A stretch of 64,000 nucleotides of DNA from Sediminispirochaeta bajacaliforniensis DSM 16054 (lineage in GTDB: Bacteria > Spirochaetota > Spirochaetia > DSM-16054 > Sediminispirochaetaceae). Positions 38,537-50,679 of the stretch are shown here, piece after piece. The position numbers and the translations under genes were made by a program. Below the pieces are notes generated by a model. That model searched no databases. It was not told the DNA's origin and saw only the letters and a program-made list of their open reading frames with translations. The DNA lies in NCBI RefSeq assembly GCF_000378205.1, contig NZ_KB899413.1:62001-126000 (forward strand), written 5' to 3'. Positions within the stretch are counted from its first letter, which is position 1, and the number at the start of each line of letters is the position of its first letter.

Positions 38537-39598
38537 TCAGGAGAGTCGTTCGATCACCGCGTCAGCCATCTGGCGGGTTCCGACAGATGGGCCGCCACCG
38601 GCTACGTCGCCGGTGCGAACGCCGTCGTTTAAGGCAGCCTCAATGGCAGCTTCAACGGCACGTGCGGCATCCACCCGGTCGAAGGAATATTCGAACATCA
38701 TGGCTCCAGAAAGGATCTGGGCAATCGGATTTGCAATGCCCTTTCCCGCAATGTCGGGTGCAGATCCCCCGGACGGTTCAAAAAGATTCACGCTTTCACC
38801 AATGCTTGCCGAAGGAAGCATTCCCAGGCTGCCTGCAAGGGCCGCCGATTCGTCGGAGAGGATGTCACCGAAAAGATTCCCCGTTACGACAACATCGAAG
38901 CCTCCTGGATTAAGGATAAGCTGCATGGCAGCATTGTCAACATACATATGGTTCAGCGCAACGGAAGGGTAATCGGCTCCCATTTTTGCCACCACAGTAC
39001 GCCAGAGGATGCTGGCGGAAAGTACATTTGCCTTGTCCACACTGGTCAATGTTCCCCTGCGCCGAGCTGCCGCCTCGAAGGCCACCTTTGCAATTCGGCT
39101 CACCGTCTCTGCCTCATACAGCATCGTATCGAGGCCATGGCTCTCATCAAGCTCTTTCGGCTCTCCAAAGTAGATTCCCGAAGAAAGCTCTCTGACCGTT
39201 AACAGATCGACACCCGATCCCGAAGGAATCCGAACCGGACACTGATCAAAAAGCGCGGGATAGAGGCGAACCGGCCGCAGGTTTGCATAGAGCTTGAGGG
39301 CCTTGCGAATGGCAAGCAAGCCACCCAACTCCGGCCGCTGTTTCGGCGGCAAGTTGTCCCATTTCGGTCCGCCGACAGAACCGAGGAGAACGGCATCCGC
39401 AGAGCGGCAGAGGTCGAGGGTTTCATCAGGAAGGGGAGATCCCTTAGCATCGATGGCGGCCCCACCGATAAGCGCCTGGTCGAATTCCATCGCTATGTCA
39501 TACTTCTTTCCGGCCGCCTTGAGGACCCGAAGGCTCTCGGTCATGACCTCCGGACCGATACCGTCTCCGGGAAGGACTGCAACACGAAAGGTCTTCAT
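38537..39598 (-). CDS. leuB: 3-isopropylmalate dehydrogenase
   Basis: Oxidises and decarboxylates 3-isopropylmalate in leucine synthesis and, by the same chemistry, 3-methylmalate in the citramalate route to isoleucine. The 353-residue protein has VLPGDGIGPEVMTESLRVL, the substrate Tyr-Glu region, the catalytic Lys/Asp segment SVDKANVLSASILWR, and the NAD motif GSAPDIAGKGIANPIAQILSGAMM. The ATG at 39598 overlaps the leuD stop as ATGA. Last gene of the operon. Confidence 0.95.
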   Translation of the reverse strand: MKTFRVAVLPGDGIGPEVMTESLRVLKAAGKKYDIAMEFDQALIGGAAIDAKGSPLPDETLDLCRSADAVLLGSVGGPKWDNLPPKQRPELGGLLAIRKALKLYANLRPVRLYPALFDQCPVRIPSGSGVDLLTVRELSSGIYFGEPKELDESHGLDTMLYEAETVSRIAKVAFEAAARRRGTLTSVDKANVLSASILWRTVVAKMGADYPSVALNHMYVDNAAMQLILNPGGFDVVVTGNLFGDILSDESAALAGSLGMLPSASIGESVNLFEPSGGSAPDIAGKGIANPIAQILSGAMMFEYSFDRVDAARAVEAAIEAALNDGVRTGDVAGGGPSVGTRQMADAVIERLS

Positions 39599-40113
39599 GC
39601 TCCCTCCTTCATCAATTCGGCCTTGGCATAGGAAAGCCACCCCCCGTAATCGATCACCTTTTTCAAAAACTCAGGGTAGGGATTGAACGTAAACTCTTTA
39701 TTCTTCGTAAGGTTACGCACAAGACCCCGATCAAAATCGATCTCGACCTCGTCGCCCTCGCCGAATTGGTCGGCTTCGGGAAGCTCAATGATGGGAAGAC
39801 CGATATTGAAGCTGTTGCGCAGGAATATCCGAGCAAAGCTCTTGGCGATGACGCAGCCGATACCCGAGGCCTTGATCGATATGGGGGCATGTTCGCGGCT
39901 GGAGCCGCAGCCGAAGTTTTCACCGGCAATCATAATCGATCCGGAAAGATCGTCCCTGCGACCGAAGCCGCTTCTGGCATCCTCCATGCAGTAGAGAGCC
40001 AACTCTGCCGGGTCGCTGGTGGAAAGGTAGCGTGCGGGGATGATCTCGTCGGTATTCACGTTATCCCCAAAGACAAAGCAGCTGCCCTTGCGTTTCATAG
40101 TGGTATTACTCAT
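39595..40113 (-). CDS. leuD: 3-isopropylmalate dehydratase small subunit
   Basis: Forms isopropylmalate isomerase with LeuC. The 172-residue length fits the short homoaconitase/IPMI type. Motifs: VFGDNVNTDEIIPARYL near the N-terminus and GENFGCGSSREHAPISIKASGI, which closes the substrate pocket. ATG directly follows the leuC stop (TAAATG). In a citramalate pathway this pair also isomerises citramalate. Confidence 0.95.
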   Translation of the reverse strand: MSNTTMKRKGSCFVFGDNVNTDEIIPARYLSTSDPAELALYCMEDARSGFGRRDDLSGSIMIAGENFGCGSSREHAPISIKASGIGCVIAKSFARIFLRNSFNIGLPIIELPEADQFGEGDEVEIDFDRGLVRNLTKNKEFTFNPYPEFLKKVIDYGGWLSYAKAELMKEGA

Positions 40114-41382
40114 TTACGCCCCCTCACGGATGTCGGTGATGTAGCCGGTAATCGCCGAATGCGCGGCGACCGCCGGTCCTGCAAGATAGACCTTACTTTT
40201 TAGATGCCCCATTCTTCCGACGAAGTTTCGGTTTGTGGTACTCAAGGCAACCTCATCCTCGGCAAGGATCCCCATGTGGCCGCCAAGGCAGGGACCGCAG
40301 GTTGGTGTGGAGAAGGCACATTCGGCATCTACAAAAATCGAGGCGAGGCCCTCCTCCACAGCCTGGCGATAGATCTTCTGGCTTCCCGGGAAGATGATAC
40401 ACCTCACGGATGGCGCAACCTTTTTTCCTTTCAGGATTTCGGCAGCTACCCTGAGGTCTTCGATCCTTCCGTTGGTACAGCTTCCGATGACGACCTGATC
40501 GATTTTCACCTTCTCCTTCTCTGCCTCTGCCGCACTCTTACCGTTGGAGGGAAGGAAGGGGTATGCAACCATGGGAGGAACATCGGAGAGATCGATATCA
40601 ATGCTGCGTTCCCAGGCGACATCCTCGTCGGCCGCAAAGGGCTCAACCTTGATACCTCGCTCCGCTTCGTAGGCAATGGTGATGTCATCTACGGGAAAAA
40701 GTCCAGCCTTACCGCCGGCCTCAATAGCCATATTGCTGACGGTAAAACGGCTGTCCATGGAAACATTGGCGACTCCCGGACCGGTGAATTCCATTGCCCG
40801 ATAGTTGGCCCCATCTACTCCGAGGATGTGAATCAGATAAAGTACCAGATCCTTTCCAGCCACACCCTTTCGAAATTTTCCTGTAAGCCGGACTTGTATG
40901 GCTGAAGGGACCTTGAACCACGCCTTGCCGGTGAGATACACACCGGCAAGGTCCGTAGAGCCGACACCGGTAGCAAAGGCACCAAGGGCCCCGTAGGTGC
41001 AGGTATGGCTGTCCGCGCCGACAACCAAATCACCGGACTTTACGATCCCCATCTCCGGCAGGATCACATGCTCTATTCCCATACGTCCCACTTCGAAGAA
41101 GTGTTTCACGCCCTGCTCATTGGCAAAATCCCTCACCAGCTTCACCTGCTGGGCGGACTTGATATCCTTGTTCGGCGCAAAATGGTCGGGAACAAGGACC
41201 ACACGGTCGGGGTAACGAAGGTTTTTCCCTCCCGCCTTCCGAAACTCGTTAATGGCCACCGGGGCGGTAATATCGTTTCCCAGGGCGACATCAACATCGA
41301 GCATCAGGTACTCTCCCGGGCTGACCCTTCGGTCCGCCTTTCGGGAGAAAATTTTCTCACTCATACTCTGGCCTGTTGCCAC
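40114..41382 (-). CDS. leuC: 3-isopropylmalate dehydratase large subunit
   Basis: The 422-residue aconitase-like subunit. [4Fe-4S] cluster cysteines lie in VVIGSCTNGRIEDL and CAFSTPTCGPCLGGHMG; GADSHTCTYGALGAFATGVGSTD carries substrate-binding residues. The size matches the short archaeal/anaerobe type that pairs with the 160-170-residue LeuD. The start is GTG at 41382 with AAAGGAG placed 6 bases upstream. Confidence 0.95.
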   Translation of the reverse strand: MATGQSMSEKIFSRKADRRVSPGEYLMLDVDVALGNDITAPVAINEFRKAGGKNLRYPDRVVLVPDHFAPNKDIKSAQQVKLVRDFANEQGVKHFFEVGRMGIEHVILPEMGIVKSGDLVVGADSHTCTYGALGAFATGVGSTDLAGVYLTGKAWFKVPSAIQVRLTGKFRKGVAGKDLVLYLIHILGVDGANYRAMEFTGPGVANVSMDSRFTVSNMAIEAGGKAGLFPVDDITIAYEAERGIKVEPFAADEDVAWERSIDIDLSDVPPMVAYPFLPSNGKSAAEAEKEKVKIDQVVIGSCTNGRIEDLRVAAEILKGKKVAPSVRCIIFPGSQKIYRQAVEEGLASIFVDAECAFSTPTCGPCLGGHMGILAEDEVALSTTNRNFVGRMGHLKSKVYLAGPAVAAHSAITGYITDIREGA

Positions 41383-41452
41383 ATCAATCTCCTTTACTCA
41401 AGTGTATTGTCTCATCACGTTTCGTTGCTTCATGTTTTTGTATGTCCACTTC

Positions 41453-42970
41453 TCACCGCTTACGCAGCTCAAAACGATTAACAGCATTCAGGTAGGCCAT
41501 GGCAGAGGCCTCGATAATATCCGTTGACGAGGCCTTTCCCCCGTAGGTAGCGCCCTCTATCTCAACCTCAAGCTTTACCTCTCCCTGAGCATCCTTTCCC
41601 GATCCAATGGCGTGGATAATGTACTCTTTCAGTTTGGCGTTTATGCCGACACACTCATCTATGGCATTAAAGACCGCATCAACGGGGCCATCGCCGGTTG
41701 CCGAGGCAACCTTTTCTCCTGCCTCGGAACGTACCTTTACCGTGGCTCCGGGGATGAGACTGTTACCGGTAAATGTATGAAAATACAACAGGGAGAAGCC
41801 CTTCACCACCCCACCTAAAACGGTACCGACGATGGAAAAGAGATCTTCGTCGTACACCTCTTTCTTTTTATCCGCAACCGCGGTAAAGCGGGCAAAGACA
41901 TCCTCAAATTGCTGACGGGTCAGTTTTATATTGTACTGGGAAAGCTTATCTTCCAGCGCATGCTTTCCTGAGTGGCGCCCCATGATGATGGTTTCGCTGG
42001 ACCTTCCGATCCGTTCCGGCTTCATAATCTCATAGGTTTCCCGCTTATTGAGTACCCCATGCTGATGTATCCCGGATTCGTGAACAAAGACATTGTCTCC
42101 GAAGATCGGCTTATTTCGCGGGATCAACAATCCGGTAATGCTTTGAAGCAGTTTCCCCGTGGGATAGAGATACTCGGTGTGAACCCCGGTTTCGACATCG
42201 AACATGTCTTTTCTTACATCGAGGCTCATAATAAGCTCTTCCATGGGACAGTTTCCCGCCCTCTCCCCTATACCGTTAAGGGTAACCTCAACCTGACTGG
42301 CTCCACTGCGAACAGCAGCCAGGCTGTTTGCCAGGGCAAGGCCCAGATCGTTATGACAATGAACAGAGAGATCAACCGAACCGTTGGAAAACTGAGGGAC
42401 CTGTTCGACAAGAAAGCTTATAAGCTCTCCGAATTCTTTAGGAACCGCGTAACCGACGGTATCGGGAATATTGATGCTGGTGGCACCGCACTCGATGGCA
42501 GTTTTTACCACCTCGACAAGGTAATCAGGCTCGGTACGGCTGGCATCCTCAGGACTGAATTCCATCCGTGAAAAGCCTTTTCCACCGTAATTAAGGCATT
42601 CCCGGACCGTATCGAGAATCTCCTCCTTACTTTTCTTCAGTTTGTACTCCCGGTGCAGGGGACTGGTGGCGATGAAAATATGGAGCATGGGATGGGCGGC
42701 ATCCCGAAGTGCATCATAGGCGGCGTCAATATCACGCTGTACACAGCGGGCCAGTCCCACGACTTCCGCCTTCTTTACCGTTGCACTGACCCGTTGAACG
42801 GCCTCGAACTGCACAGGACTTGAAACGGGAAAGCCCGCTTCAATCCTATCGACACCAAGGCGCTCCAGGGCACTGGCCATCTTTATTTTCTGCTCCAGCG
42901 ACATGGATGCGCCGGGGGATTGTTCGCCATCTCTCAGGGTTGTATCGAAAATCTTAATTCTGCGCGGCAT
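41453..42970 (-). CDS. leuA: 2-isopropylmalate synthase
   Basis: Condenses 2-ketoisovalerate with acetyl-CoA, the first step to leucine. With the ATG at 42970 it has 505 residues: TIM-barrel start [24 protein letters not shown], metal-binding VHCHNDLGLALANSL, NGIGERAGNCPMEELIMSL, and a C-terminal LeuA allosteric domain (about residues 380-505) that binds leucine. A 17-bp overlap with cimA and lack of a conserved N-terminal extension support this start over the one at 43027. Confidence 0.95.
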   Translation of the reverse strand: MPRRIKIFDTTLRDGEQSPGASMSLEQKIKMASALERLGVDRIEAGFPVSSPVQFEAVQRVSATVKKAEVVGLARCVQRDIDAAYDALRDAAHPMLHIFIATSPLHREYKLKKSKEEILDTVRECLNYGGKGFSRMEFSPEDASRTEPDYLVEVVKTAIECGATSINIPDTVGYAVPKEFGELISFLVEQVPQFSNGSVDLSVHCHNDLGLALANSLAAVRSGASQVEVTLNGIGERAGNCPMEELIMSLDVRKDMFDVETGVHTEYLYPTGKLLQSITGLLIPRNKPIFGDNVFVHESGIHQHGVLNKRETYEIMKPERIGRSSETIIMGRHSGKHALEDKLSQYNIKLTRQQFEDVFARFTAVADKKKEVYDEDLFSIVGTVLGGVVKGFSLLYFHTFTGNSLIPGATVKVRSEAGEKVASATGDGPVDAVFNAIDECVGINAKLKEYIIHAIGSGKDAQGEVKLEVEIEGATYGGKASSTDIIEASAMAYLNAVNRFELRKR

Positions 42971-44630
42971 ACGCCACCTCCTTATCCACTTCAATGCTCC
43001 CGCCGCCGGAATGGCGGCGGGATTCATCCTCTTTCTTCAGTTTATAAATAAGCGAATCACAAAGAGCATGCCATGATGCATCCAGGATATTGTCGGAAAC
43101 ACCCACGGTGGTCCAATGATCGACCCCGTCGGTGCTGCTTATCATGACTCGTGTGGTCGCATTCGTGCCAGCCTCTTCATTGAGAATTCGCACCTTATAG
43201 TCCGAAAGCTTTACCGTCCCAAGAACGGGGTAAAATTTTTCAAGAACCTTCCTAAGGGCCCTGTCAAGGGCCTCCACAGGGCCGCTTCCGTCGGCCGAGG
43301 TGTGTTCCACGGGATCGGAATAGCCGCCGGATAGGCTGACCTCTTCGGGAACCGCTGCCTTGATGGTGGCTTCGGACCAGGACTTGCCATCTCCCTCCGC
43401 CCAGGTAAGAACCCTGAAGCCCTGAAGGGTAAAGTAATCCTTCAAGGTCCCCAGTTCCCTTGCCGAAAGCAGTTCAAAGGATGCATCGGCACCCTCGAAA
43501 TGATAGCCTCTGGCCTCCAACTCCTTCACCGCTTTGAGGATTCCTGCGGTCCGTTTCGGATCGTCGGAAAGATCGATCCCCAGCTTTTTCACCTTCTCAA
43601 GAACATTGCTCTTCCCCGATAGTTCGCTGATAGTCACGATACGGTCGTTGCCTACAAGCTCGGGGGAAACATGTTCATAACAGCGGCTATTTTTCCGAAC
43701 TGCAGAGACATGGATACCTCCCTTATGCGCAAAGGCATTCCGTCCGACATAGGGAAGCCAGTCGGGCTGGCTTCGGTTCGCCGCCTCGCTGACAAGATGA
43801 CTTATATGAGTAAGCTTTTCCAGTTGTCCCTCGGGAAGACAGTGAAAGTTTCCTTTCAATTCAAGATTGGGGATCACGCTGCAGAGATTGGCATTCCCGC
43901 ATCGCTCTCCAAGACCGTTTATCGTTCCCTGCACCATTCTTGCCCCCGCACCGACGGCGACGAGGCTGTTGGCAACGGCAAGCTCACTATCGTTGTGGGC
44001 GTGAATACCGAGGGGAACGGTAACCCGGGCGGCGGCTGCCTCCTGCGCTTCAAGAATCTCCGAAGGCAGGGAACCGCCATTGGTATCACAAAGGGCAATC
44101 CAGTCCGCCCCCGCCGACGCCGCTGCTTCGATGACCGCCAGGGCATAGCCCCGGTCGGCCTTGAAGCCGTCGAAAAAATGCTCCGCATCGAAAACGATCT
44201 TCTCAAAACGGCCGCGAAGATAGGCGATGGTCGAGGAAACCATTGCAAGGTTTTCATCCAGCGAGGTTTCAAGAGCCTCGGTTACATGGAGGTCCCAACT
44301 TTTACCGAAGATCGCCACCGCCGGTACCCCTGTCTCGCAAAGGGTCCTGATATTGGTGTCCTCTTCCACCGCCATATTCTTCATCCGCGTGGAGCTGAAG
44401 GCGGTCAGACTGGCATGGGAAAGAGGTGCCTTTTTCATCTCGTGAAAGAAAGCGACATCCTTGGGATTGCTCCCGGGCCAGCCCCCCTCGATGAAATCGA
44501 CACCAAGTTGGTCCAGTCCCCGGGCGATCCTGATTTTATCCTCCACCGAAAAGGCGACACCCCTGGTCTGGGCGCCATCCCTGAGGGTGGTATCAAAGAT
44601 CATGATCTTTTCACGCGAAGAATCACTCAT
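42954..44630 (-). CDS. cimA: (R)-citramalate synthase
   Basis: Condenses pyruvate and acetyl-CoA to citramalate, the entry of the threonine-independent isoleucine route. At 558 residues it has a DRE-TIM barrel ([23 protein letters not shown]), [49 protein letters not shown] and [22 protein letters not shown], then a LeuA-type regulatory domain. [16 protein letters not shown] with Arg-Gly-Val is the CimA-type variant (LeuA has EQSPGASM). It overlaps ilvD (ATGA) and leuA. No threonine deaminase gene is in the operon. Confidence 0.9.
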
Positions 44631-46366
44631 GACGTTTCTCCCGATTGAAGCCGCTTCACCGACTCGGAGGCAGCCTCAACAAAATCCTTACGGTAGATGG
44701 CCCCCTCGGCGGCACTGCCGACAAATATCGAATAGCGTGCAAGATAACCATCGGGATTGTGCTTGGCGGTCACAGGTTTTCCGGCCGAGGCCGCAGCCAA
44801 GGCACCTGCACGCCGTTTCTTTTCGTCCTCCCCCACCAGGAGGTCGAGGCTACGTTTGTTGAAATCGACTCGTATGCGATCTCCCTCCTGAACAAGGCCG
44901 ATGGGGCCTCCATTTGCCGCCTCGGGAGAAACGTGGCCGATAACCGCTCCCGTCGACCCGCCGGAAAAGCGACCGTCCGTGATCAAAACGACTTTCTCTA
45001 TCAAGCCCAGGCCGACGATGGCGCTTGTGGGGCTGAGCATCTCACGCATACCCGGGCCGCCTTTGGGGCCTTCGTTACGAATCACAACAACATCTCCGCT
45101 TTTCACCTTACCGGCCAGGATGGCCTCGGTCGCGACTTCCCCATCTTCATAAACAACGGCAGGCCCTTCGTGAACGCGGAGGGCTTCAGGAACCCCGGCA
45201 AGTTTGACAACGGCGCCGTCCGGTGCAAGCGAACCGTGAAGGACGGCAAGCCCCCCTTCCGCATGATATGGATGGCCTACAGGACGAACCACCTCATCAT
45301 CCCAAACCCGGGAAGCATCGGCAATCTCACCGATGGTTTTTCCGGTCACGCTTTTCGCATCCCTTTTTAATTCTCCCAACTCGTTGAGACGGGAAAGAAT
45401 CGCACCGATGCCGCCCGCGGCCTCCAAATCCTGGATATGGTGTTTTCCCACAGGGGAGAGATTGCAGAGATGGGGAATCCTGCGGCCGAGCAGGTCGAAG
45501 TTGTCGATTGAGAAATCAACATCGAAAGCCTTGGCTATGGCAGGAAGGTGCAGTGCGGTATTGGAAGAGCCGCCAAGGGCGAGGTCTGCGGCAACGGCGT
45601 TCATAAAAGAATCTCCGGTTGCAATATCTCTGGGGCAGATACCCTCTTCCACCAGCCTGACCACCGCCATTCCGGCCTCCTTGGCAAGGCGGATGCGACC
45701 GGAATCGACGGCAGGAATGGTTCCGTTTCCGGGAAGGGCAAGCCCAAGCACTTCGGCAAGGGAGTTCATGGAGTTTGCGGTAAAAAGACCGGAACAGCTT
45801 CCCGCTCCCGGACAGGCATAGCTTTCGATAGCGGTCAGCTCATCATCGTCGATATCGCCCTGGGCGTGGCGCCCTACCGCTTCGAAGACCGAGATAAGAT
45901 CCAGGCTCTTGCCGTGGTAGTTACCGGCAAGCATGGGACCGCCGCTTATCAGAACCGAAGGGATATTGAGTCTCCCCATGGCCATAAGCATACCCGGAGT
46001 TATTTTATCGCAGTTGGAAATAAAGACCATACCGTCGAAGGGGTGGCCTTCGGCCACGATCTCGATGGAATCGGCAATGAGTTCCCGGCTGGGCAGGGAG
46101 TAGTACATCCCCTTATGATCCATGGCGATCCCGTCACAGACACCGATGGTGGAAAATCGCAGGGGCGTGGCGCCGGCCATTCGAACACCGGCCTTTACCG
46201 CATCCTCAACCTGAGCGAGGTGCATATGACCGGGAATGAGTTCACTCGCCGACGAGGCAATCCCGATAATAGGACCGGCAATCTCCCGGTCGGTGAGTCC
46301 CAGCGCCTTCATCAAAGATCGGTGGGGAGCCCGTTTCGATCCCAGTTTCATTTTATCACTTCGCAT
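44627..46366 (-). CDS. ilvD: dihydroxy-acid dehydratase
   Basis: Fe-S enzyme that dehydrates dihydroxyisovalerate and dihydroxymethylvalerate to the keto acids of valine and isoleucine. With the ATG at 46366 it has 579 residues. Motifs: [56 protein letters not shown] and the C-terminal [34 protein letters not shown] lies upstream of this ATG, which is why I rejected the 20-residue longer start at 46426. Confidence 0.95.
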
Positions 46367-46432
46367 AGTTCCCTTCTCCTTTGTTTCGAAAAACCCCGGC
46401 GACCCTGGCCGCCGGAGTTTCTTCATGGTTTT

Positions 46433-47494
<1,062 letters not shown>

Positions 47495-48004
47495 CTATCG
47501 GGTCTGCTTCTTTTCCCACCGGTTCATCGCAACGATGCCGGTTCTCGCCACCTCAACCACCTGCTGAGGTGGAAAAAGGCCGATAAACGAGTCCACTTTT
47601 TCACTGCTTCCGACGATCTCCACAACAAAGCCGCCGGGGCCGGAATCGATCACCTGGCCCTTGAATACGTTGACCATCTGCAGAACCTCATTCCGAGATC
47701 CGTTGGTGGCCCTGAGTTTGATAAGTCCAATCTCTCGTTCAACCTTATTGCGCGGGTCAATGGGACTCACCTTTACCGTATCGACGATCTTGTAAAGCTG
47801 TTTCTGAATCTGTTCCACACTCTGGTCATCGCCCTTTACAATGATGGTGAGCCTGAACATATCGGGATCTTTGGTCGGCCCGGCAGCGATCGACTCGATA
47901 TTAAAGCCCCTCCTGGTAATCAGACTGGTCAGCTTCGAAAGAACCCCCGGGTGGTTGTTCACCAACACGGAAATGGTGTGATCGGTATATTCTTCTTCGC
48001 GCAT
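47495..48004 (-). CDS. ilvN: acetolactate synthase small (regulatory) subunit
   Basis: A 169-residue regulatory subunit. The N-terminal ACT domain is clear (HTISVLVNNHPGVLSKLTSLITRRGFNIESIAAGPT), followed by the ALS_ss_C domain (ELGLIKLRATN-like EIGLIKLRATNGSRNEVLQMVNVFKGQVID). It gives valine feedback control and raises activity of the large subunit encoded just upstream. Size is that of the IlvH/IlvN long form. Confidence 0.94.
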   Translation of the reverse strand: MREEEYTDHTISVLVNNHPGVLSKLTSLITRRGFNIESIAAGPTKDPDMFRLTIIVKGDDQSVEQIQKQLYKIVDTVKVSPIDPRNKVEREIGLIKLRATNGSRNEVLQMVNVFKGQVIDSGPGGFVVEIVGSSEKVDSFIGLFPPQQVVEVARTGIVAMNRWEKKQTR

Positions 48005-48024: not shown

Positions 48025-49707
48025 TCAGATCTTCTCAACAACTTGTTCAAGGGGTTTACCCGCAGGGACCATCGGAAGGACGTTTGCCGACGGACTGACA
48101 TGGGCATGAAGCAGCATCGGCCCCTCGCATTCGGCAAGTTCCCTGAGAACATCTTGCGCATCCTTGGCATCCCGGAGCGTGCGGCCGTGGATGCCGAAGA
48201 CCTCGGCAAGGGCGGCAAAATCGGGATTATCATCCATGACGGTACCGGCGTAACGCTTCTCGAAGAGAAGCTCCTGCCATTGGCGAACCATTCCGAGATA
48301 ACCGTTGTCTATCACCAGCATCTTTACAGGAAGACGATAACGCCTGATGGTGGCAAGCTCCTGAAGGTTCATCTGAAAACCTCCGTCGCCGCTTATCATC
48401 AACACCGGTTTGTCGGGATTTCCGACAGCCGCCCCTATTGCCGCGGGAAGGCCGAAGCCCATGGTCCCAAGTCCCCCGCTGGTAAGAAAGGAGCGTCCCC
48501 TGGAAAAGCCGAAAAACAGGGCGGCCCACATCTGGTTCTGTCCCACATCCGTGACGACTATGGTCTCTTTGGGGAAAATTTCCCCGGCAAGCTGGATCAA
48601 TCGTTGCGGGGCCAGCCCCCCGGGATTCTTCGGATCCTCGGCAACCAGAGGGTGGGCGGATCGATACTCGACGAGTTCGCGGATCCACTGTTCGGAATCA
48701 ACCGGAATATCGGCCTTGTTCAAATCCCCCAGCACCGATTGGATCGTACCGACGATGGGAAGGTCGGCCTTGATGCTCTTTCCGATCTCTGCGGGATCAA
48801 TGTCCACATGGACCAGTTTTGCCTTCGGGGCAAAACCTGCCCCGTCACCGACGATACGGTCTGAAAAACGGACCCCAAGGGCAAGGATGAGATCGGCATG
48901 TTGAACGGCATAATTACCGTAGAGGGTACCATGCATTCCGATAGGTCCAAGAAGCAGCTCACTTCGCTTCGGCATCACGCCATGCCCCATAAGGGTACAG
49001 ACAACGGGAATACCCTTCTCGTCCGCAAGACGATTCACCATTTCCGTTGCTCCGGAAAGATTGACACCACCGCCGGCGATGATCAAAGGTTTACGTGACT
49101 GTTTCAACATGCCGATGACCGACTTAATCTGCTTCGGATGGCCGTTCATGTTCGGCTTGTATCCTCGTAGCTCAATCGTATCCGGATAGTCAAAGGAGAC
49201 ATCCTGGGCCTGTACATCCCCGGGGATATCGATAACCACAGGGCCGGGGCGGCCGGTGGTTGCAAGGTGAAAGGCCTTCTTTACCGTATAGGCGATCTCA
49301 CTTGCATCCCGTACCAGAAAATTGGCCTTTGTGATCGGCATGGTAATTCCAACTACATCTGCTTCCTGAAAAGCATCGCTTCCGATTTGATCTAGGTTGA
49401 CCTGCCCGGTTATGACAACCATGGGAACGGAATCCATATAGGCTGTCGCAATGCCGGTGACAGTGTTGGTGGCGCCGGGACCGGAGGTAACAATAACAAC
49501 ACCAGGCCTGCCGGTGGAGCGGGCATAGCCATCAGCCGCATGGGTCCCCCCTTGCTCATGACGGGGGAGAATCAAACGGACACGATCCTCAAATTCCTGC
49601 AGTTGATCAAAGATGGAAATAACTTTCCCGCCGGTATAGGCAAAAATCGTGTCCACACCTTCGAGTAAAAGACTTTCAACCAATATTCGTGCACCTTTCA
49701 AGATCAT
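48025..49707 (-). CDS. ilvB: acetolactate synthase large subunit
   Basis: ThDP enzyme that forms acetolactate or acetohydroxybutyrate. With the ATG at 49707 it has 560 residues. Seen: GVDTIFAYTGGKVISIFDQL, where the usual P of YPGG is T; the catalytic Glu in LPRHEQGGTHAADGYARSTGRPGV; SGPGATNTVTGIATAYMDSVPMVVITGQV; and the ThDP/Mg motif ISGDGGFQMNLQELATIRRYRLPVKMLVIDN. AGGAGG stands only 2 bases before this ATG; a TTG two codons further in (49701) has better spacing. Expression is probably set by the attenuator directly upstream. Confidence 0.94.
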   Translation of the reverse strand: MILKGARILVESLLLEGVDTIFAYTGGKVISIFDQLQEFEDRVRLILPRHEQGGTHAADGYARSTGRPGVVIVTSGPGATNTVTGIATAYMDSVPMVVITGQVNLDQIGSDAFQEADVVGITMPITKANFLVRDASEIAYTVKKAFHLATTGRPGPVVIDIPGDVQAQDVSFDYPDTIELRGYKPNMNGHPKQIKSVIGMLKQSRKPLIIAGGGVNLSGATEMVNRLADEKGIPVVCTLMGHGVMPKRSELLLGPIGMHGTLYGNYAVQHADLILALGVRFSDRIVGDGAGFAPKAKLVHVDIDPAEIGKSIKADLPIVGTIQSVLGDLNKADIPVDSEQWIRELVEYRSAHPLVAEDPKNPGGLAPQRLIQLAGEIFPKETIVVTDVGQNQMWAALFFGFSRGRSFLTSGGLGTMGFGLPAAIGAAVGNPDKPVLMISGDGGFQMNLQELATIRRYRLPVKMLVIDNGYLGMVRQWQELLFEKRYAGTVMDDNPDFAALAEVFGIHGRTLRDAKDAQDVLRELAECEGPMLLHAHVSPSANVLPMVPAGKPLEQVVEKI

Positions 49708-49735
49708 AACCTCCTTGATCTTCCCCGGGCACGAC

Positions 49736-49786
49736 AAAACCTCTCCGGCATTCCCGGTGCATATGGATGCACCTTCCGGGAGGGAG
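49736..49786 (-). terminator. attenuator terminator upstream of ilvB
   Basis: On the minus strand a GC-rich hairpin: inner stem GGTGCAT/ATGCACC with a CCAT loop, outer arms CTCCCGG and CCGGAGAG, then G and TTTT (49736-49739). It lies between the leader peptide and ilvB, so it would stop transcription unless prevented. The U-run is short and the outer stem has a bulge. Confidence 0.7.
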
Positions 49787-49796
49787 ACAGCGAGTC

Positions 49797-49880
49797 AGTT
49801 TCGTCGTTCGGGGTAATTTAGGTCAGGTAACCGAGCCTAACAGGCTTGGTTACCTGCCGCCATACTCGAACGGCGAAACT
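49797..49880 (-). promoter_or_regulatory. leader RNA secondary structure of the ilv-leu attenuator
   Basis: Two nested pairings. A long-range stem joins 49867-49880 (inside the leader peptide gene) with 49797-49810, 13 of 14 bases paired. Inside it is a perfect 9-bp stem, 49848-49856 with 49824-49832, extended by 4 bp, whose loop region holds the leader peptide TAG stop. A ribosome stalled on the last Ile codons would cover the outer 5' arm. Which alternative pairing acts as antiterminator I could not settle by eye. Confidence 0.65.
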
Positions 49881-50001
49881 TTCCAATAATGGATAGAATA
49901 ATAATCGAAATTGGTAGGCTGGAGAGGAGGATGTTTACGATAATAATAATGCTCATAACCGGGACAATAAGGTTTATGGACCGAGCAATAATCGTAAACA
50001 T
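49837..50001 (-). CDS. ilv-leu operon leader peptide, Ile-rich (54 aa)
   Basis: ATG at 50001 with AAGGAG at 50010-50015, 8 bases upstream; TAG at 49837-49839. Of 54 residues, 15 are Ile, 5 Leu and 3 Val, including runs of four (codons at 49939-49950), three and two Ile; 12 of the 15 Ile codons are ATT. The peptide begins MFTIIARSINLIVPV. A short ORF full of codons for the products of the operon, lying between its promoter and a terminator, is the classic mark of ribosome-mediated attenuation. When Ile-tRNA is scarce the ribosome stalls and the downstream genes are read. It is longer than the E. coli ilvL peptide (32 residues). Confidence 0.85.
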   Translation of the reverse strand: MFTIIARSINLIVPVMSIIIIVNILLSSLPISIIILSIIGKFRRSSMAAGNQAC

Positions 50002-50036
50002 ACCTTGGACTCCTTAAAGGAAAAATCTTAGAACTA

Positions 50037-50065
50037 AGGGTATCGGGGGGGAAAAAACGTGTCAA
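50037..50065 (-). promoter_or_regulatory. promoter of the ilv-leu operon
   Basis: Minus strand consensus TTGACA (50060-50065), 17-base spacer, TACCCT (50037-50042). The -35 overlaps the stop codon of the upstream membrane-protein gene. The predicted start near 50030 gives about 30 bases before the leader peptide ATG. The weak -10 suits a regulated promoter. Confidence 0.65.
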
Positions 50066-50679
50066 GCCTTTACAACTTGTGAAATCACAAAAAGCGTCCA
50101 GAAGAGGAGAATCAGGACCACAATATAGATACGAATCCCGATCAGAGGCACCGCAGCCTCCCTCCTCTTCCCGGCAAGGGGGTCAGCCGGTGACTCGTCA
50201 GCCTCTTCAAAGCAAAAAAGAAGGATCTGATCCAGCCGCTTTCCAAGGTGAGTAAGGGCATACCAGAAACCCTTCTCTTTCGCCGGAGGATCGAAGTCTA
50301 TAATTTTCTCAAAATAATACAGGGTCCTGGCGACAAGAGCTCCCCCCTTTCCTGGAAGGGCGAGGGATGCGCTTATCGAAGAACGGGAAAGGTAGACAAG
50401 GCCGATAAAGAGTAAGGCCCGCATCAGGCCCTGGACCAGAGCAACGGAGGTGACCGGGAAGGTTCCGATACGAAAGAGGACCTCCCCTACCGGAGTAAGG
50501 AGATTTGCTGCAGTGACTCCCAGCAAGAGGGCAATATTGGGAAGAAATCGGAACCGGCGCCCCAGAAGCAGGGAGTAGACGATAAGCAGGACGACTTGAA
50601 TAATCCTGAAAAAAAGCGACTGCTGAAATACGAAGGCGGGAATCAAAAGGACTCCCGCCATAAAACGAAATTTATTCAA
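50062..50679 (-). CDS. membrane protein of unknown function next to the Gx transporter
   Basis: A 205-residue protein with four or five hydrophobic segments: residues 6-35, 45-65, 75-100 and a final helix 180-203 (IRIYIVVLILLFWTLFVISQ), plus a charged cytoplasmic stretch at about 125-175 (FEKIIDFDPPAKEKGFWYAL, FCFEEADESPADPLAGKRRE). I do not recognise the family. It lies 3 bases downstream of the Gx transporter gene, and its shape (few helices plus a cytoplasmic helical part) could fit an ECF transporter T-like partner, but no EAA-type coupling motif is clear. Confidence 0.7.
   Translation of the reverse strand: MNKFRFMAGVLLIPAFVFQQSLFFRIIQVVLLIVYSLLLGRRFRFLPNIALLLGVTAANLLTPVGEVLFRIGTFPVTSVALVQGLMRALLFIGLVYLSRSSISASLALPGKGGALVARTLYYFEKIIDFDPPAKEKGFWYALTHLGKRLDQILLFCFEEADESPADPLAGKRREAAVPLIGIRIYIVVLILLFWTLFVISQVVKA

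Follow-up and report, generated by a model that had tools for sequence, protein, structure and literature searches.

The ilv-leu operon on the minus strand of the window (the whole 64,000-nucleotide stretch of Sediminispirochaeta bajacaliforniensis DNA that was analysed) is preceded by a leader ORF rich in isoleucine codons and by a chain of mutually exclusive helices, the last of which can form over the ilvB start region. Folding models suggest that this arrangement serves as a ribosome-mediated, isoleucine-responsive switch of the operon, with initiation of ilvB translation as its most likely output, a reading to which a probability of roughly 0.6 is assigned. That a ribosome-mediated isoleucine attenuator operates here, whatever its output, is considered very probable.

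Leader ORF and competing helices upstream of ilvB

An earlier note, made from the sequence of this region, had described a promoter, a Shine-Dalgarno (SD) sequence, a 54-codon ORF containing 15 Ile, 5 Leu and 3 Val codons, a stem with 13 of 14 positions paired, an inner hairpin and a GC-rich hairpin, all of which are present on the minus strand (Table 1). Its central proposal, a leader ORF of Ile codons and alternative helices that exclude one another ahead of a branched-chain operon, is supported, and NCBIfam annotation verified the downstream genes, the content of which indicates synthesis of isoleucine (via citramalate), valine and leucine. The citramalate synthase gene, cimA, is located within the operon at window positions 42954-44630, and isoleucine is therefore probably made by the citramalate route in this organism; control of such an operon by isoleucine would represent a testable physiological link. 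As in leader-peptide attenuators generally, the ORF is translatable, equipped with a promoter and an SD, and rich in codons for the products of the operon. The −10 box reads as weak, with three of six consensus matches, and the −35 box (50060-50065) shares bases with the stop codon of the gene upstream (50062-50679). With regard to the choice of ilvB start (49699-49707), the TTG agrees with the starts of orthologues (MKGARI), and the ATG is separated from the SD by just 2 nt. A Tyr-rich second frame, also mentioned in the earlier note, does exist, being merely the (ATT)n runs read as (TAT)n.

Table 1. Features of the ilvB leader region and operon in the window
Feature	Positions	Strand	Sequence or content	Remarks
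Promoter (putative)	50037..50065	−	TTGACA-17-TACCCT	TTGACA 50065-50060, 17 nt, TACCCT 50042-50037; from sequence
Leader-ORF SD	50010..50015	−	AAGGAG	8 nt before ATG 50001; from sequence
Leader ORF	49837..50001	−	MFTIIARSINLIVPVMSIIIIVNILLSSLPISIIILSIIGKFRRSSMAAGNQAC, then stop	54 codons; last Ile codons 38/39
Leader-start hairpin	49931..50001	−	ATGTTTACGAT/ATCGTAAACAT	Pairs leader start with first Ile run; from folding
Segment 1	49867..49880	−	AGTTTCGCCGTTCG	Codons 41-45, directly 3' of last Ile codons
Stop-codon hairpin	49824..49856	−	CAGGTAACC-AGCCT/AGGCT-GGTTACCTG	From folding
Segment 2	49797..49813	−	CCCCGAACGACGAAACT	Partner is segment 1 or segment 3
GC-rich hairpin	49740..49783 (about)	−	Hairpin, then TTTTGTCG	Read as a terminator in the earlier note; from folding
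Segment 3	49716..49741	−	GGTTTTGTCGTGCCCGGGGAAGATCA	Segment 2 is the partner of its 5' part, segment 4 of its 3' part
ilvB SD	49710..49715	−	AGGAGG	2 nt before ATG 49707, 8 nt before TTG 49701
Segment 4	49687..49706	−	TGATCTT...GCACGA	ilvB start region and early codons; pairs with segment 3
ilvB	48025..49707	−	Acetolactate synthase large subunit	NCBIfam TIGR00118; start ATG 49707 or TTG 49701
ilvN, ilvC, ilvD, cimA, leuA, leuC, leuD, leuB	38537..48004	−	In this order after ilvB	NCBIfam

The composition of the leader was compared with that of dinucleotide shuffles, none of which (0/2000) contained 15 Ile codons in one ORF of at least 20 codons (shuffle mean 3.1, maximum 12). Isoleucine is encoded by ATT at 12 of the 15 leader positions, as opposed to 77 of 236 in the operon. 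Folding of the leader RNA, which the earlier note had advised, revealed it to be considerably more stable than its shuffles (z = −6.35). Segment 1 pairs at 13 of 14 positions with CGAACGACGAAACT (49810-49797), 57 nt away, whereas helix 2:3 comprises 11 contiguous base pairs plus a 5-bp CCCCG/CGGGG extension, formed between segment 2 and positions 49741-49723. Duplex energies in the window are −17.9 (1:2), −23.8 (2:3) and −20.4 kcal/mol (3:4).

When isoleucine is plentiful, the ribosome would finish the leader and depart at its stop codon, whereupon segment 1, at the end of the leader ORF, would pair with segment 2, leaving segment 3 free to fold over the ilvB SD and start region, the OFF state. 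When Ile-tRNA is short, the ribosome would halt on the last Ile codons and cover segment 1, such that segment 2 would capture segment 3 and the start region would be freed, the ON state. We infer such switching in cells, its response to isoleucine and its effect on translation rather than transcription. In the model, the ribosome was represented by masking the RNA as far as approximately 12 nt beyond the A-site codon, and folding was restricted to the RNA ahead of it. As the ribosome is advanced in the model from codon 36 to codon 38 of the window leader, the probability of helix 1:2 falls from 0.87 to 0.05, that of 2:3 rises from 0.12 to 0.91, and that of the outer part of 3:4 falls from 0.85 to 0.06. 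The flip occurs at the last two Ile codons, 38 and 39, and Ile codons before codon 38 had no predicted effect in the model, which argues against the graded control by dispersed Ile runs that the earlier note had envisaged. With segment 1 free, modelled window transcripts ending approximately −8 to +11 relative to ilvB favour helix 2:3, and ilvB codons up to about +20 are needed for 1:2 and 3:4 together to prevail over it; the ilvB start region is therefore taken as the fourth segment of the chain. With segment 1 masked, helix 2:3 is predicted to win once segment 3 is present.

Leaders in the same family and the output at the ilvB start

Four leaders were available in the family, namely those of the window's genome (G000), a same-genus genome (G001), the MAG JAIPFV01 (G002) and a further MAG (G003), the last two being the only other family members found. 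Between G000 and G001 there are four differences from the leader start to early ilvB, three of which lie in the stop-codon hairpin, where each preserves or adds a pair. G002 and G003 are considerably more diverged, with IlvB proteins approximately 65% identical to that of the window and leader DNA identical to one another at 277 of 430 positions. A search of relatives for Ile-rich short ORFs upstream of ilvB, as proposed in the earlier note, was fruitful in both, each of which has a long leader rich in Ile at the corresponding position: MQNAIMNVMIAISISS...SGRSNTAPAHC of 67 codons in G002, and MRNAIISMMSIITIIS...SDRARTAFTSC of 63 codons in G003. Conversely, family f23, with IlvB proteins 62-67% identical to that of the window, yielded no convincing leader. 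A TTGACA-17-TAnnnT promoter precedes the leaders in G001, G002 and G003, and the same order of elements recurs in the window, G002 and G003, in which the TTGACA promoter and SD are followed by the Ile runs, segment 1 comes behind the last Ile codon, and segment 2, a hairpin, segment 3 and ilvB then succeed one another. A hairpin in which the first Ile run pairs with the start of the leader has a similar folded layout in G002. The sequence itself is not conserved between species, whereas the ORF and the pairing scheme are, and the leader peptides of the window genus and of G002 and G003 have in common mainly an Ile/Leu/Val-rich composition and a short C-terminal motif. When helix 1:2 is read by eye and in register, four of its seven pairs differ between G002 (CGAGGUG/CACCUUG) and G003 (UCGGGGGA/UCCCUCGA) with pairing preserved, two of them at both bases and two at one base; this is no more than suggestive, the automatic alignment being one base off at this point.

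Segment 3 in G002 and G003 corresponds to the anti-SD strand (UCCUCCUUUUCUCAAU against AUUGAGAGGAGGAG in G002), and the conserved segment-2 core, GAAAAGCACAGGAACAA, is able to pair with it. In the modelled OFF state of these leaders the ilvB SD is paired, with unpaired probabilities of approximately 0.0-0.1 across most of its length. The modelled cost of opening the start region falls in G003 from 15.6 to 9.6 kcal/mol at the last Ile codon (codon 44), and in G002 from 21.6 through 12.7 to 6.5 kcal/mol over codons 46-53 (last Ile codon 47); in both, helix 2:3 takes over completely in the base-pair model only once the ribosome stands 4-6 codons beyond the last Ile. When helix 1:2 or helix 2:3 was locked, the opening costs were 16.8/7.9 kcal/mol in the window, the other two pairs of values being 22.5/9.5 and 18.9/10.3 kcal/mol; the drop from 16.8 to 7.9 assumes that one or other helix has already formed, which is reasonable for co-transcriptional folding, yet is an assumption. 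At equilibrium the opening cost in the window does not fall (6.6 to 6.6, later 8.4 kcal/mol), and likewise with a different ribosome footprint. A start region hidden by default, the hallmark of translational attenuators, is thus predicted for G002 and G003 at equilibrium and for the window only with locked helices. Since in the window the SD is in the loop of a hairpin whichever state is modelled, with nearly the same unpaired probability (0.85-0.9) in each, and the opening cost does not drop at equilibrium, the case for a translational output rests mainly on G002 and G003. On balance the models favour ilvB translation over a terminator as the output, least strongly in the window's own species.

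The pairing of one segment with two partners was also compared with shuffled sequence. Since a looser duplex-energy test for double partners was not significant (60/200 shuffles as good for the window, the other two figures being 16/200 and 47/200), a helix-based and a position-fixed test were used. In the former, two partners sharing one segment were matched by 8/400 shuffles for the window, 28/400 for G002 and 292/400 for G003. In the latter, segment 1 was confined to the 40 nt that follow the last Ile codon, and segment 3 to the 45 nt preceding the ilvB SD, a geometry chosen after the segments, first picked by inspection, had been seen; the observed best shared partner was reached by 13/500 shuffles for the window, a modest result, 0/500 for G002 and 1/500 for G003, results that are not fully independent given the common ancestry of G002 and G003. 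Exclusive helices selected by a ribosome at the control codons, as in leader-peptide attenuators, are therefore indicated by the modelling together with the 13/500 figure. When applied to unrelated long leaders (Aminicenantes and family f53), the position-fixed test was not significant, with 19 to 200 of 200 shuffles as good, and the gaps in several f53 leaders were too short for it.

ilvB leaders elsewhere in the Spirochaetota and alternative readings

The wider survey covered 91 upstream loci in Spirochaetota, which are the top matches of several searches and hence a non-random set with some duplicates. A strong Ile/Leu/Val-rich leader ORF was flagged in 32 of the 91, the window's own included, and was accompanied by a terminator in 22 of the 32; a few of the ten terminator-less loci may be AT-rich false positives. 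The 22 terminator-bearing leaders are 16-38 codons long, mostly with a CCGTTCTYCC terminator and U-run. Classical leader-plus-terminator loci occur in many Spirochaetia families (L007-L011, L013, L016-L018, L029, L042, L044, L047, L049, L051-L053, L056, L057, L061 and L071), and those scanned matched no Rfam family. In eight terminator-type leaders that were modelled, the antiterminator tends to be favoured with the ribosome in the Ile/Leu/Val run and then falls, from 0.91 to approximately 0.2 in L010 and more weakly in others. The window's genome itself contains a second ilvB-ilvN locus (G000:C13; L039 and L074), the 31-codon leader of which, MTATVRNLVVSLSVLVVVVLVVVDAGRRRSG, is rich in Val (11 Val, 0 Ile) and is accompanied by the terminator AGGGCCTGCCGCC-GATT-GGCGACAGGCCCT-TTTTTT; by its sequence this is a classical attenuator with a different codon specificity.

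Other leaders were observed before ilvB. In the phylum-level family f53 (L175-L181 and L183), SD-preceded leader ORFs of 24-50 codons, most with LNILLSIL-like ends, have no evident terminator. Aminicenantes MAGs (L083, L084 and L086) have Ile/Leu-rich leaders of 56-63 codons with a recurring stem near the end and a common C-terminal QRTS motif. These two groups of long leaders were considered as being of the same type as the window leader; a fixed geometry was not clearly shown, and the assignment is thus not claimed. Bacteroidota/Kryptoniota MAGs (L091, L092, L093 and L097) share a leader of 54-62 codons ending in LLSEGNILLGIIS, in which GGAATAACC-like segments recur and might serve as alternative pairing partners, with no Rfam match, and in L157 (G395, another phylum member) many short GTGCT...AGCAC repeats lie upstream of ilvB.

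The earlier note had read the window locus as an attenuator in which isoleucine starvation permits read-through of a terminator into ilvB. Ribosome-mediated control at Ile codons, the first half of that reading, is well supported; the terminator half is not. A classical transcription attenuator, in which transcription ends at the GC-rich hairpin with UUUUGUCG except when a ribosome has stalled on the Ile codons, would be the usual form of ilvB leader in other Spirochaetia and the form of the sister ilvBN operon in the same genome, and a U-tract is indeed present, albeit a weak one with 5 U in 8. Nevertheless, competition between segments 1, 2 and 3 hardly reaches the hairpin before the U-tract (approximately 2 bp), as opposed to a classical antiterminator that contains the 5' arm of the terminator; segment 3 would still be untranscribed at the moment of termination, the TTTT itself lying inside it (GGUUUUGUCGU); the equivalent hairpins of both G002 and G003 lack a U-run; a terminator scan gave no site at the GC-rich hairpin; and the chain of segments ends on the ilvB SD and start. 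Transcription attenuation at this locus is accordingly regarded as unlikely. The combination of both layers, in which ilvB translation is blocked and the untranslated mRNA is then lost via Rho-dependent termination or decay, such that mRNA levels change too, is consistent with the same modelled helices, and loss of mRNA is a known consequence of blocked translation in bacteria; nothing specific was observed that speaks against it, and it is judged rather improbable as the account of this locus. That the leader ORF encodes a functional small membrane protein with incidental RNA folds fits a strongly hydrophobic peptide kept in the family, but is very improbable given the limited peptide similarity between the window genus and the two MAGs, the lack of a Pfam match for the peptide, the strong ATT bias, the involvement of the ORF end in the RNA switch and a position matching that of the attenuator leaders of relatives. 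Equally hard to credit is a metabolite riboswitch or T-box overlapping a short ORF by chance: the leader is structured, and ppGpp riboswitches and T-boxes control branched-chain amino acid (BCAA) or aminoacyl-tRNA synthetase genes elsewhere (PMC8632094; PMC1262725), but Rfam 15, with its T-boxes, ppGpp and other riboswitches and known leaders, gave zero matches above the gathering threshold for the window and for 15 related leader loci, and what is kept from species to species is the ORF and the pairing scheme, not the sequence.

With a translational switch as the preferred reading of the main operon, the chances are about even that the Spirochaetia employ one sensing device, a BCAA-codon leader ORF with competing helices, with two outputs: terminators in most families and a hairpin sequestering the ilvB start in the Sediminispirochaeta family. 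One genome would then hold both, with Ile codons governing a translational switch at the main operon and Val codons a transcriptional one at the second acetolactate synthase. Amino acid attenuation is usually drawn with a terminator; were this scheme true, the output part of an attenuator would be exchangeable, as in riboswitches, with a ribosome-binding-site switch beside relatives and a sister operon that use terminators, and control of ilvB in spirochaetes would generally involve attenuation.

Comparison with known systems

The enteric ilvGMEDA, ilvBN and leu operons are controlled by ribosome-mediated transcription attenuation. The present leaders resemble theirs in having an ORF rich in codons for the product amino acids and, as modelled, a stalled ribosome that selects between exclusive helices, and differ in their length of 54-67 codons, in the absence of a clear terminator and in a last helix that lies over the ilvB start region. 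A stalled leader-ORF ribosome that frees a hidden ribosome-binding site is also the principle of the erm-type translational attenuators of antibiotic-resistance genes, in which the signal is a drug, unlike uncharged tRNA.

The earlier note knew of no account of such a leader in this group, and none was found for this spirochaete group in the open-access literature; BCAA-rich uORFs before ilvB have been published for Corynebacterium, for ilvB-OMG and, within the phylum, for the Leptospira ilvB motif (PMC10272879; PMC8632094). The Corynebacterium ilvB-II motif, or ilvBNC attenuator (PMC10272879; PMC11857589), likewise combines a BCAA-rich uORF before ilvB with attenuation, but its uORF is mostly 15-17 codons long and is followed by a strong terminator stem and U residues. 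In the Leptospira motif (PMC8632094; reread as a uORF in PMC10272879) the BCAA-rich uORF lies approximately 70 nt before ilvB and contains Val and Thr codons. BCAA leader uORFs have also been predicted in Actinobacteria, where the LEU element of leuA involves the SD (PMC1262725); it is similar in having a leader ORF with a Leu run and pairing that includes the SD of the biosynthetic gene, and different in that its Leu run pairs directly with the SD and a pseudoknot is involved, whereas a separate segment 3 lies over the start region here. The leader-plus-terminator ilvB attenuators of other Spirochaetia share with the window the BCAA leader ORF before ilvB and a modelled antiterminator that tracks ribosome position, and differ in their shorter ORFs and U-run terminators. 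The sensing half of the window leader is of a known kind, and its proposed output is deduced from folding.
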